This document shows positions 195 to 61,034 of a DNA stretch of 64,000 nt, piece by piece. The translations under genes were made by a program, and so were the position numbers. The stretch is from Planctomycetota bacterium (GTDB lineage Bacteria; Planctomycetota; Planctomycetia; Planctomycetales; Planctomycetaceae). Below the pieces are notes generated by a model that saw only the letters and a program-made list of their open reading frames with translations, was not told the DNA's origin and did no database searches. Location: the NCBI GenBank assembly GCA_027618475.1, contig JAQCEJ010000008.1, positions 1 to 64,000 of the forward strand, read 5' to 3'. Every line of letters begins with the position of its first letter. Within the stretch, counting starts at the first letter, position 1.

Positions 195-290
195 CACTAC
201 AAGCAGTTACATAACCCTCTGGACGATGGAATTTTCGGGGCCATTGGTACGTTTACTCTGTCGCCAACCGGGTTATGAAACCAGTTCTAG
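195..290 (-). repeat. ~95-bp intergenic palindromic repeat, copy C
   Basis: Read on the minus strand this matches three other intergenic copies (40823-40917, 50908-51000, 57075-57165). Shared blocks are TAGAACTGGTTTCATAACC, TTGGCGACAG and ATCGTCCAGAGGGTTATG, in the same order and at similar spacing. The blocks GTTTCATAACC and GGTTATG form inverted arms around a variable core. It ends about 35 bases before the oxidoreductase start. The rest of 1-324 shows no convincing gene. Confidence 0.75.
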
Positions 291-40822: not shown

Positions 40823-40917
40823 GAGAACGGTTTTCATAACCTGATTGGCGACAGAATATGCGTTCAAGCTGTCCTAAAAAACCTATCGTCCAGAGGGTTA
40901 TGAAACGGCTTGTCGTC
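40823..40917 (+). repeat. ~95-bp intergenic palindromic repeat, copy A
   Basis: The best-formed copy: GAACGGTTTTCATAACC at the left, TTGGCGACAG next, then ATCGTCCAGAGGGTTATG and AAACGGCTTGT at the right. The arms TTTCATAACC and GGTTATGAAA are exact inverse complements around a ~50-base core. It lies in the 342-base gap between two convergent genes. Matching copies lie at 195-290 (minus), 50908-51000 and 57075-57165. Confidence 0.8.
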
Positions 40918-48093: not shown

Positions 48094-48227
48094 CAGCCTG
48101 TTGAAAATGTGGGATGATCAAATTATGTGTACCACGGGGTAGCTTGTCCCCTGTGTTTTTCCGATGCCTCACAACAAGACTGCCGGACAAGCCGGCAGTG
48201 CCAACCATTTTTTCAACGGACTGTTAG
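48091..48227. repeat. 137-bp palindromic (MITE-like) element
   Basis: The ends AGCAGCCTGTTGAAAA and TTTTTTCAACGGACTGTT are imperfect inverse complements of about 20 bases. Inside are two smaller hairpins, GGGGTAGCTTGTCCCC (~48136-48151) and ACTGCCGG-acaag-CCGGCAGT (~48179-48199). It begins inside the last codons and stop of the kinase gene and ends about 85 bases before NfeD. No coding capacity. It may be a nonautonomous mobile element, a structured RNA region or a terminator. Confidence 0.55.
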
Positions 48228-49095: not shown

Positions 49096-50124
49096 ATGGA
49101 TAATTCCGTTTTATTTTTCGTGTTTATCTTCGTCTTTCTCGCCGTGCTGTTTCTCTTTGTGATATCCGCCCAGTATTTCAGTTTGTGGATCCAGTCGATC
49201 ATGACGAAGGCGGGGATTTCGCTCCCCGCGTTGATTTTCATGCGCATCCGAAATGTGAATCCCTCAGTGATCGTCCGCAGCAAAATCATGGCGGTTCAAG
49301 GGGGTCTGACGCGCGTTTATCCGATCTCGACAAAGGCGCTCGAAGCCCATTATCTTGCCGGGGGAAATGTTCCAAACGTCATTCGTGCGCTTATTGCCGC
49401 CCATAAAGCCAAGCTCGATCTCGACTGGCAGACCGCCCAGGCCATCGATCTGGCGGGACGCGACATTCTCGAAGCGGTGCGAACGAGCGTTTATCCGAAA
49501 GTGATCGAATGCCCCGACCCGCGTAAGTCCTCAGGAACGCTCGACGCCGTTGCCGGTGACGGTATTCAGTTGAAAGCTCGTGCTCGTGTGACCGTGCGGA
49601 CGAACATCCGACAGTTGATCGGCGGAGCGACGGAAGAAACCGTGATCGCCCGCGTCGGTCAGGGGATCGTGCAGGCGATCGGTTCGACCGGATCGTACAA
49701 GACGGTGCTGGAAAATCCCGATAATATCTCCCGCACCGTGTTGAATCAGGGTTTGGAAGCGCAGACGGCGTACGAAATCGTTTCGATCGACATCGCCGAT
49801 ATCGATGTGGGAGAAAACATCGGTGCGCGGTTGCAGGCCGACCAGGCCGAGGCCGACATGCGCGTCGCCCAAGCCAAGGCGGAGCAGCGTCGTGCGGCGG
49901 CAAAAGCCCGCGAACAAGAAATGATCGCCCAAACGCAGGCCAATCGTGCCGAGGTCGTACTCTCCGAGGCGGAAATCCCGCAGGCAATTTCTGCCTCGCT
50001 TCGCAGCGGACAATTGGGACTGCTCGATTATTACGAGTTGAGGAACGTACAAGCCGATACCAAGATGCGAGCGGCGATCGCCGGTGAAGGCCGCGACGGT
50101 TCGCTCGCCTCGGCGTCTAAATAA
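49096..50124 (+). CDS. floA: Flotillin-like protein FloA
   Basis: A 342-residue protein of the FloA/YqfA family. A short membrane-inserted N terminus ([19 protein letters not shown]) is followed by a band-7/SPFH domain and a coiled-coil region rich in Ala, Glu and Arg ([20 protein letters not shown]). It organises membrane microdomains that gather signalling and transport proteins. GAGAGAC lies upstream of the start. It sits between NfeD and a third small membrane protein, so the three probably form one operon. Confidence 0.93.
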
Positions 50125-50152
50125 GAGAGCTTTGAATTCAAAAGGCGATTGT

Positions 50153-50911
50153 ATGACCGGCTTATCGAACCCGATGTGGCTGTTGGCCGACGCCGGTACC
50201 GTCGTTACGATTCTGGTGTTGTTTCTGTACTTCATCAACTGGGTGCTGCAGAAAGCCGGCGAAGCGAAGAACGCTGCGCCGCAGCGAGGACGTCCCGCAC
50301 GCCAGCTTCCCGCACCACAAGCAAAGGAACTGGACGATTTTCTCAAGCGGGCCCGTGCCGGAGCAAACCTTCAGCAGGCCGGTCGTCGCGACGCGAAAGG
50401 CGTGTTTGATGGAAACGATCTGCTGGAAGTCGTTGAAGAGGCACCACCGCGCCGATCTCGACCCGCACAACGCCAGACGCCTCGGGAACCGAAACGGCAA
50501 AAGCCCAAGCCTCGTCCGCAACCGCTCGCTTCTTCGACAGATTCTCAACACGGATCGAACGAGTCGAAGCTCACGCGGCAACCATTGAACCGGCCTGTGC
50601 ATCAGGAATTTCAATCGACGGTTGGTCATAGCCAATTGAGTCAGCTTCAGCAGCACCTGACCGCCTATATGGAATCGGGACGCGTCGACAAGTCGGTGGC
50701 CGAACATTTGCCGTCGCTGGTCAGAGAACTCAATTTGAAAATGGCACGAGAGAAAGAATCGACATCGTCTGAGGTGTCCGGCGCGTTGATCGAAGATGCG
50801 AATACCGCGCGGAATGCGATTATCGAAATGTTTCATAATCCTCAAGAGATTCGCCGGGCCGTGATCGTTAACGAAATCCTGCAAAGACCCCGATCGTTGC
50901 GACATGACTAG
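50153..50911 (+). CDS. Single-helix membrane protein with Pro/Arg-rich linker
   Basis: A 252-residue protein. The start at 50153 has AAAGGCG upstream. One helix (MWLLADAGTVVTILVLFLYFI) is followed by a long Pro/Arg/Gln-rich stretch and a helical C-terminal part containing VGHSQLSQLQQHLTAYMESG and TARNAIIEMFHNPQEIRRAVIVNEIL. It is directly behind floA and likely cotranscribed. It has no recognised family; a partner of the flotillin system is suggested by position only. Confidence 0.65.
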   Translation: MTGLSNPMWLLADAGTVVTILVLFLYFINWVLQKAGEAKNAAPQRGRPARQLPAPQAKELDDFLKRARAGANLQQAGRRDAKGVFDGNDLLEVVEEAPPRRSRPAQRQTPREPKRQKPKPRPQPLASSTDSQHGSNESKLTRQPLNRPVHQEFQSTVGHSQLSQLQQHLTAYMESGRVDKSVAEHLPSLVRELNLKMAREKESTSSEVSGALIEDANTARNAIIEMFHNPQEIRRAVIVNEILQRPRSLRHD

Positions 50912-51000
50912 AACGGTTATTATAACCCGGTTGGCGACGGATATATTGTCAGATCGTCCTGCTGAATGCAGCGTCCCGAGAGTCATGAAACGACTTGTAA
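50908..51000 (+). repeat. ~95-bp intergenic palindromic repeat, copy B
   Basis: The copy runs from CTAGAACGG to GACTTGTAA, with the shared blocks TATAACCCGGTTGGCGAC and CGTCCCGAGAGTCATGAAAC in the family order. It overlaps the stop codon of the previous gene and ends ten bases before the glycosyltransferase start. Confidence 0.75.
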
Positions 51001-51009
51001 GCCCTTACC

Positions 51010-52140
51010 ATGTCTGATGCCACTGTTAATGTCTTGCTGATCGCAGGACGCTACGAACTTCGTGGTGCGTGGACTTACACCATGGGACTGGCCGAACAAC
51101 TCGGCAAGCACGGTTTCGATACCACCATCCTCTGTCCCGAAGCGCAGCTTCTCGATTCCGTCGAGCGCTCGCGGCTGCATATTACCGAATGTCGGCACTT
51201 GAGATACCCGATTTGGGGAAAGTTTGTCACTCGGCTTCTGGGACGGGAATTAGCGAGCCAGCCTCCCCGCTTGATTCATATTCAGTCGCGACGATTACTG
51301 GCAACCGGAGTGCAACTCGCCCGGCAATGGAACCGCCCCTGTCTACTGACGATTCACGACTATTTGGGGTCTCGCGAAAAACTGGTGGTCGATCCGACGA
51401 TTTGTCGGCGGATGATCGCCGTCAGCGAATCGGTCCGTAAGGAGCTGTTATCACATGCGTATTATCCGCCGGAACAGATCGTCGAAATTCCTGTCGGAGT
51501 CGATCTTCCCGCGGCGAGCGATGTGCATCCGATTCTCGATCCGTCGCGCGTCCCGGTTGTCGGTATGGTAGGCCCGCTCGAAGAGTTGAAGGGGATTCCC
51601 TATTTTCTCGGAGCTGCCCGCAAGGTGTTGCAGATGTATGGCGACGTCGAATTTCTTATCGCGGGTTCCGGCCCCGAAGAGGAAAATCTCCGTCGACTCG
51701 CTCAATCGCTCGAGATCGCCGATCACGTCACGTTTGCACCAAATCTTAGCGATGTTGCTCCTTCTCTCGATGCGATCGACGTCTTCTGTCTGCCGTCGCT
51801 GATGCAAGGTGTGGGAACGATCATGCTTGAAGCGATGGCGCTCGGTAAGGCGGTTATTGCGGCCAACGTCGGTGGAGTTCACGCCGCCGTGAAACATCAG
51901 GAAACCGGTCTGCTCGTCTCCCCCGGCGAGAGCGGCGAACTGGCAACCCAGATCGTCGAGTTGCTCAGACACCCCGAACGGGCGCGAGAACTCGGGCAGC
52001 GCGCCCGACAACTCGTCGAAACTCGTTTTGCGACCGAACACATGGTTAAACAGACGGCGAGCCTCTACCGCACGATTTTAGAGGAAACCGAACGCGACGC
52101 TGGTTCTCGCCAAGAGTCGAAAGCCGTCCCTTCCCATTGA
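51010..52140 (+). CDS. Family 4 glycosyltransferase (GT-B)
   Basis: A 376-residue GT4 enzyme. The N-terminal half has the open Rossmann fold (VNVLLIAGRYELRGAWTYTMGLAEQL). The C-terminal half carries the nucleotide-sugar site with the E-x7-E pattern (IMLEAMALGKAVIAANVGGV). No membrane helices. It probably adds a sugar to a lipid-linked or cell-surface glycan at the inner membrane. It stands alone between a repeat element and CinA. Confidence 0.9.
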   Translation: MSDATVNVLLIAGRYELRGAWTYTMGLAEQLGKHGFDTTILCPEAQLLDSVERSRLHITECRHLRYPIWGKFVTRLLGRELASQPPRLIHIQSRRLLATGVQLARQWNRPCLLTIHDYLGSREKLVVDPTICRRMIAVSESVRKELLSHAYYPPEQIVEIPVGVDLPAASDVHPILDPSRVPVVGMVGPLEELKGIPYFLGAARKVLQMYGDVEFLIAGSGPEEENLRRLAQSLEIADHVTFAPNLSDVAPSLDAIDVFCLPSLMQGVGTIMLEAMALGKAVIAANVGGVHAAVKHQETGLLVSPGESGELATQIVELLRHPERARELGQRARQLVETRFATEHMVKQTASLYRTILEETERDAGSRQESKAVPSH

Positions 52141-56399: not shown

Positions 56400-57062
56400 T
56401 CATTTTGCGTTCATCTCGCTGCGCGCCTGCTTGATCAAGTCGACATACTGCGCTGCCAGCGTGCGGATGCGATCGAAATCTCCCTCTTTCACGGCTTTGG
56501 CTTCAACGAGCGACGAACCAAGGCCGACAGCGCACGCCCCGGCTTTGACAAAACTCTTGACGGTTTCAAGATTGACCCCGCCGGTCGGAAGCAACCGCAC
56601 GTGCGGCAGCGGGCCGTGTATCGCCTTCAGATACGACGGTCCGCCGACGTCTGCCGGAAAGACTTTGACGATGTCGGCCCCGGCCTCCCACGCCGTCAGC
56701 ACTTCGGTCGGCGTGAAGGCTCCCGGCAGAATCATCTTGCTATACCGTTTACACAACTTGATGACGTCGGTGTTGACCGTCGGTGAGACGATGAACTCGG
56801 CCCCTGCGAGCAACGCCGCCCGGGCCGATTCAGTATCGAGCACCGTCCCCGCTCCGAGCAAAATTTTGTCGCCGAGGTCTTTCCTCACGGCTGAGATAAT
56901 ATCGAGCACACCGGGAACGGTGAACGTCACTTCGATCACATCGATCCCCCCGTCATACAGCGCGCGGGCGACATTGACGAGTTGCTCGCCAGAGGGAGCA
57001 CGAATGATGGCGACGGCACCGCAGTCAAGGACGCGCTGAAGGGGATCGGAAGACGAAGGCAT
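56400..57062 (-). CDS. eda: KDPG/KHG aldolase
   Basis: A 220-residue class I aldolase that cleaves 2-keto-3-deoxy-6-phosphogluconate (and 4-hydroxy-2-oxoglutarate) to pyruvate and an aldehyde. The Schiff-base Lys is K133 in ADIVKVFPAD, with E44 in VIEVTFT and phosphate contacts in LGAGTV, PGAFTPTE and PTGGV. The length is usual for the family. AGGATTTG lies upstream. It stands alone rather than with edd. In planctomycetes it probably serves breakdown of uronic or aldonic acids. Confidence 0.93.
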   Translation of the reverse strand: MPSSSDPLQRVLDCGAVAIIRAPSGEQLVNVARALYDGGIDVIEVTFTVPGVLDIISAVRKDLGDKILLGAGTVLDTESARAALLAGAEFIVSPTVNTDVIKLCKRYSKMILPGAFTPTEVLTAWEAGADIVKVFPADVGGPSYLKAIHGPLPHVRLLPTGGVNLETVKSFVKAGACAVGLGSSLVEAKAVKEGDFDRIRTLAAQYVDLIKQARSEMNAK

Positions 57063-57074
57063 TTCAACAAATCC

Positions 57075-57165
57075 TTAGAACTGGTTTTATATCCGTGCGG
57101 GCGATGGAAAACGTCCCATTTACCATGAACCGCTCCCACCCAGAGTTATGAAAATATTGTCGATG
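57075..57165 (+). repeat. ~95-bp intergenic palindromic repeat, copy D (diverged)
   Basis: TTAGAACTGGTTTTATATCC at the left and CAGAGTTATGAAAATATTGT at the right match the other copies in order and spacing, but the inner blocks have drifted. It sits immediately upstream of the eda ribosome site, in the 127-base gap before the next gene. Confidence 0.65.
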
Positions 57166-60029: not shown

Positions 60030-60908
60030 ATGAATGTGTTTCTCGAATTGACAAGCAAGAGTTCCGGACCGAAACGCGTCCGGCTGAAATCGATGACCGT
60101 TATCGGTCGCAGTAAGCAATGTCAGCTGCGCATTCCCTCTACCGAAGTGAGCCGCGAACATTGTCAGATCGCGATTACTTACGATGGTGCCTTTCTTGTC
60201 GATTTGGGAAGTTCCAACGGTACCGAAGTTGATGGCAACACGATCAAGCCGGGGGCTCCCGTTAAACTTTCGTCCGGCATGCGTCTTTCGATCGGGCCGG
60301 CGGACTTTATCGTGCATTGCGAACAGGCGACCGGATCTCGAACGCCCGATCAAGACGATTCTGTTAATGAACGTGGAGAACCTCTCGCCGATACCGCGCT
60401 CATCACTCCCGGGTCGATTCCGACACGTCTCGATACAACTCGAAAAGAGAGGGATGAAAACCAGAATTGGCCGCATGTCATCGAAACGCTCGGTCAATTG
60501 CCGAATACAAATACCGACGGCGAATCGTCCGACGCAGAGCCCGATTTTGCCGAATGGGATGCGAATGCAACGAACCAGACCGATGCTGATGCATCCGATG
60601 CGAGTCAACAGCCTGACGAAACCACCGCGGACGTTAAACCCCGAAAACCGTTTTCGTTGTTCTCGCTGTTAAGACGAAACCAGACGTCGCCGTCCAAGGC
60701 GAAGAAAGAAGAATCTTCCGGCGCGGCAGACAAATCGGATGACGGACTGCATTTTATGCCGATGGAAAACGACGGCATCGATGTGGCCTCGATCGGCGAT
60801 GACGAATCCTCCGATAAGGACGAGGGGGAAGAAACCCTCGTGGTCGACCCGACGGAGGGACACCCAGATAACGATGATCTCGACGATTTTCTGAAACATC
60901 TCTCCTGA
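60030..60908 (+). CDS. FHA domain protein
   Basis: A 292-residue protein. Residues ~1-95 are a canonical FHA domain: VIGRSKQCQLRIPSTEVSREH, then VDLGSSNGTEVDGN, with the conserved Arg, Ser, His and NG residues, so it should bind phosphothreonine peptides. The remaining ~200 residues are acidic and low-complexity. Start at 60030 (MNVFLEL). It precedes a CaMKII-association-domain protein and a receiver-like protein on the same strand. Confidence 0.88.
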   Translation: MNVFLELTSKSSGPKRVRLKSMTVIGRSKQCQLRIPSTEVSREHCQIAITYDGAFLVDLGSSNGTEVDGNTIKPGAPVKLSSGMRLSIGPADFIVHCEQATGSRTPDQDDSVNERGEPLADTALITPGSIPTRLDTTRKERDENQNWPHVIETLGQLPNTNTDGESSDAEPDFAEWDANATNQTDADASDASQQPDETTADVKPRKPFSLFSLLRRNQTSPSKAKKEESSGAADKSDDGLHFMPMENDGIDVASIGDDESSDKDEGEETLVVDPTEGHPDNDDLDDFLKHLS

Positions 60909-61034
60909 CGACGAAAATATCATCACAAAATCGAGCTGTCGGCATCGGAACCTTGGCGCATAACATCGTTCCGGTGAGAAATGTAACGGCTTGTATGACG
61001 TCCCTCAACCAACGGAAAGGTTGTCACTGCTGAA

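Follow-up and report, generated by a model that had tools for sequence, protein, structure and literature searches.

Across the 64,000-nucleotide window analysed here (positions 1 to 64,000 of contig JAQCEJ010000008.1 from a Planctomycetota bacterium), a palindromic intergenic repeat of about 95 bp recurs, and the question it raises is whether such a sequence represents a mobile nonautonomous element, a regulatory RNA element or a structured leader, the three possibilities offered in the preliminary description. The repeat is best explained as a family of miniature inverted-repeat transposable elements (MITEs) of about 88 bp, inserting at TA and mobilised in trans by a DDE transposase of the IS5 family (IS427-like), a reading to which a probability of roughly 0.85 is assigned. 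It is thus the mobile nonautonomous element that finds support, from well over 100 dispersed copies, a duplicated TA target, an interrupted gene and, in a relative, an IS that shares its ends.

Copies in the Window

The copies were located with a covariance model trained on 24 genome copies, with which the window was scanned with filters off (Table 1). All four copies first described were recovered at essentially the same positions, each with an E value below 1e-4, the model matches spanning 199-289, 40823-40913, 50909-50998 and 57076-57160. The statement that three lie directly upstream of genes holds for those at 199, 50909 and 57076; convergent gene ends enclose the one at 40823. A weaker match had also been mentioned near 60.9 kb; a match does occur there, but its score marks it as a possible decayed copy and not as an established member.

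Table 1. Location of the MITE copies in the window and of the candidate mobiliser in a related genome. Copies A, B and C belong to the 24-sequence training set, and their scores are therefore partly by construction; copy D lies outside it.
Feature	Location	Strand	Model match	Context
Copy B	window, 198..289	-	107 bits	TA both sides; ATG at 325 lies 35 bp downstream
Copy A	window, 40823..40914	+	98 bits	flanking dinucleotides GA and TC instead of TA; gap between convergent gene ends (sequence, ORFs)
Copy C	window, 50909..50999	+	75 bits	TA both sides; ATG at 51010, 10 bp beyond the copy end (sequence, ORFs, translation)
Copy D	window, 57076..57160	+	29 bits, E 7e-5	diverged, shortened; 13 bp upstream of minus-strand ORF 56400-57062
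Possible fifth, decayed copy	window, 60891..60994	+	17 bits, E 0.06	borderline
IS of 874 bp	genome G024, L177:1947-2820			bracketed by two inverted ends; TA both sides
Two overlapping ORFs of this IS	genome G024, L177 2030-2512 and 2413-2811

At 50909-50911, the TAG stop codon of the ORF at 50084-50911 joins the left TA target to the opening base of copy C; before insertion, when there was a single TA, the site would have read TAA, which is also a stop. Another palindromic repeat with dispersed copies (CCACGGGG...GCCGGACAAGCCGGC) occupies positions 48113-48210 of the window and is also present in L019, L026, L037, L080 and L214; because GTGCCACGG repeats similar to it surround a RAYT gene in L103, it may constitute a REP family.

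Structure, Copy Number and Age

With the flanking TA counted as target, the MITE measures about 88 bp (copies in the genome being nearly always about 91 bp), which is too short for a transposase gene, and its layout is GAACTG-GTTTCATAACCC-(52 bp core)-GGGTTATGAAAC-TGCTTG. Its inner arms, 12 bp long and complementary, form a terminal inverted repeat; the outer six bases differ between the two ends, giving asymmetric tips, and the ends of aligned copies read TAGAAC and CTTGTA.

Allowing up to three mismatches, the right-end motif occurs 295 times genome-wide, compared with 27 occurrences of its reversed control, and the difference gives an estimate of about 270 copies in the window's genome. The genome-wide covariance-model search that had been proposed at the outset returned at least 149 matches from the 150 candidates that were scored, placing the family far above chance; restriction to four copies with no conserved pairing, which would have pointed to chance or ancient duplication, was not what emerged. 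Among the matches listed, 122 of 149 are exactly 91 positions long, and the flanks of separate aligned copies appear unrelated. Seven of the 103 full-length copies are identical to the consensus and the rest carry up to 25 differences, evidence of recent activity over older layers.

The pairing is kept across genera. Of the stem cells in 47 copies drawn from four genera, 95% are paired. One end base pair is T-A in the window's genome and A-T in the other genera, a switch that may be a single evolutionary event, and three inner-stem pairs are changed on both sides in a 16-copy alignment from these other genera, so that compensatory changes of the kind the preliminary description had suggested looking for do exist between genera.

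Insertion Sites and Target Duplication

TA is found on both sides of 100 of 140 copies, indicating target-site duplication. Base preference in the flanks is palindromic, TGNY-TA / TA-RNCA, corresponding to TGNYTARNCA targets, and symmetric (T at -4, p 6e-9; A at +4, p 9e-20); flanks other than TA, such as TC, account for about 12% on the right side.

In the window's genome (G000), a consensus-identical copy at L035:1416-1507 on contig C21 interrupts a RAYT (Y1 transposase) gene. When this copy is excised with one TA kept, a 192-codon frame is obtained that aligns to an intact homologue (L097), whereas the frame is broken if both TAs or none are kept. Comparisons of filled and empty dispersed repeats (L124 vs L057, L268 vs L266) likewise agree with a single TA; when the flanks of L019 and L026 were joined and compared, gaps fell at the junction, and these two were left out of this evidence. 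Comparison within genus g24 revealed no empty site in the sample, and a search with a window protein found no named close relative offering orthologous empty sites. At L266, L268, L013 and L002 of the window's genome there are intergenic, degenerate tandem repeats of the AATGACGAATGACGAA type, some of which carry MITE insertions.

Candidate Mobiliser

The IS listed in Table 1 for the related genome G024 encodes an IS5-family DDE transposase, its ORFs matching DUF4096 (PF13340) and DDE_Tnp_1 (PF01609), and with the NCBIfam model NF033580 (IS5 family) the first ORF scores over the cut-off and the second just under it. Its ends agree with the right ends of the G024 MITE at 15-17 of 17 bases and more weakly with the left end (12-13 of 17), and because these ends are shared, the likely mobiliser is a transposase of the IS5/IS427 type. 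In a published table that includes Paracoccus elements, the IS427 group comprises IS of about 850 bp (832-865 bp) with two overlapping ORFs, an IS5-family transposase and a 2-bp duplication (PMC3281130); the G024 IS is of similar size and has the same organization, its duplication being TA, and its probable placement in this group is based on size, overlapping ORFs and the 2-bp duplication. The MITE differs from the group in carrying no transposase itself, while its ends are common to it and the G024 IS. Related transposases with similar ends nearby were also found in genomes G018 and G250. Several G250 contigs (L205-L211) break off a short way into an IS whose ends are identical to those of the IS in G024, yet this genome gave only one match to the MITE inner motif, which the model did not confirm.

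In the window's genome, the search turned up three IS5-type transposases, with ends that differ from those of the MITE or with none found, and no IS bearing the MITE ends; we therefore infer the direct partner in this genome, an IS5/IS427-class transposase that would have moved its copies. A multicopy IS may be missing from the 218-contig assembly. Two IS5-type elements of this genome, L190 (contig C190) and L195 (contig C84), have inverted ends of their own, TGAGCCGCCGTCAAAACC and CTAGAGCCTGTTATGCACTT. In the proposed mechanism, an IS5-family (IS427-like) DDE transposase would recognise the MITE ends and move the element in trans into a TA dinucleotide, duplicating the TA, and the partner IS of the window's genome would be expected to have ends like TAGAAC/TACAAG...GTTTCATAACC.

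Distribution among Relatives

Relatives of the MITE occur in 11 of 120 genomes, representing 7 of 58 genera, sampled from the same taxonomic family as the window's genome. A scan of 392 genomes of the phylum for the exact inner motif gave matches in four, of which three belong to the same family; the fourth, outside it, had a single match, unconfirmed by the model. Plasmid and phage collections contained no match, and none of 18 motif matches in viral contigs was confirmed by the model. In genus g24, two copies are common to species at orthologous sites. No earlier description of the family was found in the literature searched, the coverage of which lay outside subscription journals and ISfinder.

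Gene Context and Alternative Explanations

With genes called by a simple codon-usage caller trained on the window, so that the calls are approximate, 97% of copies are intergenic (3 of 116 inside genes, compared with 77% of control positions), a bias that presumably reflects selection against hits in genes. The possibility that the repeat is a structured regulatory RNA, a leader or a terminator, repeated by chance, draws on the stability of the hairpins in fresh copies, well beyond that of shuffled sequence (z about -5), and on the compensatory changes in the inner stem; however, the copies in the window fold no better than many shuffles, and the covariation needs no RNA, since the same enzyme reads both transposon ends and the pairing is explained by transposon inverted repeats. 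No Rfam match above the gathering score was obtained in the window, no T-run follows the stem, and the two copies shared between g24 species have diverged about as much as their flanks. A genome-wide check of gene positions revealed no clear excess upstream of genes: the split of copies among tandem/divergent/convergent gaps is 66/22/11, where gap length in the window divides as 57/30/13%, and there is no orientation bias (38 vs 28, p = 0.27), which, within the approximation of the gene calls, argues against conservation as a leader or terminator. When neighbouring ORFs were compared all against all, many clusters consisting of one locus twice, no gene family was singled out as recurring beside copies across genera. 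The RNA and leader proposals are accordingly left without support and seem extremely improbable.

Two other kinds of mobile element were weighed against the IS5-type MITE. A REPIN-like element, in which two inverted REPs make up a fixed total length and a RAYT (Y1 tyrosine transposase) provides mobility, would share with the repeat its many intergenic copies, their near-constant length and their palindromic hairpin (PMC2817692, PMC3733652), and the window's genome contains 14 Y1_Tnp genes. In one published description, RAYTs invariably lie between a pair of inverted REPs (PMC2817692), but when Y1_Tnp was searched in four genomes and the neighbourhoods were scanned, none of the 33 Y1 loci had such an inverted pair of copies around it; one adjoins a copy solely because that copy interrupts the gene, and at two others a copy lies several hundred bases away. 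The GTAG or CGTC tag of REPINs is moreover absent at the hairpin foot, and a duplicated TA in a palindromic target is unexpected for Y1 enzymes, making this origin very unlikely. A MITE of the IS630/Tc1-mariner type, the commonest of the TA-inserting MITEs, would account for the target and its duplication, but the single DDE_3 gene of the window's genome has different ends, with none similar to those of the MITE around it, and the IS that does share the MITE ends belongs to the IS5 family; this affiliation likewise seems highly doubtful.

Discussion

The IS5-type MITE reading draws together, from sequence comparison, the copy number, near-fixed size, unrelated flanks, TA-restored frame, palindromic target and G024 IS with matching ends. 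Several points stand against it: the genome concerned yielded no IS with matching ends, the tips of the MITE differ, the left-end match in G024 is poorer, and some flanks are not TA. Additionally, the conservation of length and hairpin across genera is stricter than a simple deletion derivative needs. There is another, rather unlikely reading, in which a length-locked hairpin MITE lineage of about 91 bp with a compensated stem has been long-lived in several genera of one planctomycete family, its ends following the local IS5 transposase. Were that so, the hairpin itself would be required for mobilisation or would be retained because it serves the host, as has been suggested for REPINs.

In comparison with prokaryotic MITEs in general, which are short, non-coding, hairpin-forming, high-copy and intergenic, with inverted repeats and target duplication (PMC10969869), the present family is alike in all these respects and differs in its planctomycete IS5/IS427-like ends and in the conservation of length and hairpin across several genera, an oddity worth following. 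The repeat is probably a new family of a known kind of genomic parasite, an ordinary MITE of probable IS5/IS427 type. Its recognition explains one of the commonest intergenic repeats in the genome, warns against annotation as regulatory RNA, and offers a MITE family together with a candidate mobiliser within one bacterial family, where the end pair (T-A to A-T) and the inner stem pairs that differ between genera provide a small system for how MITE ends track their transposase.
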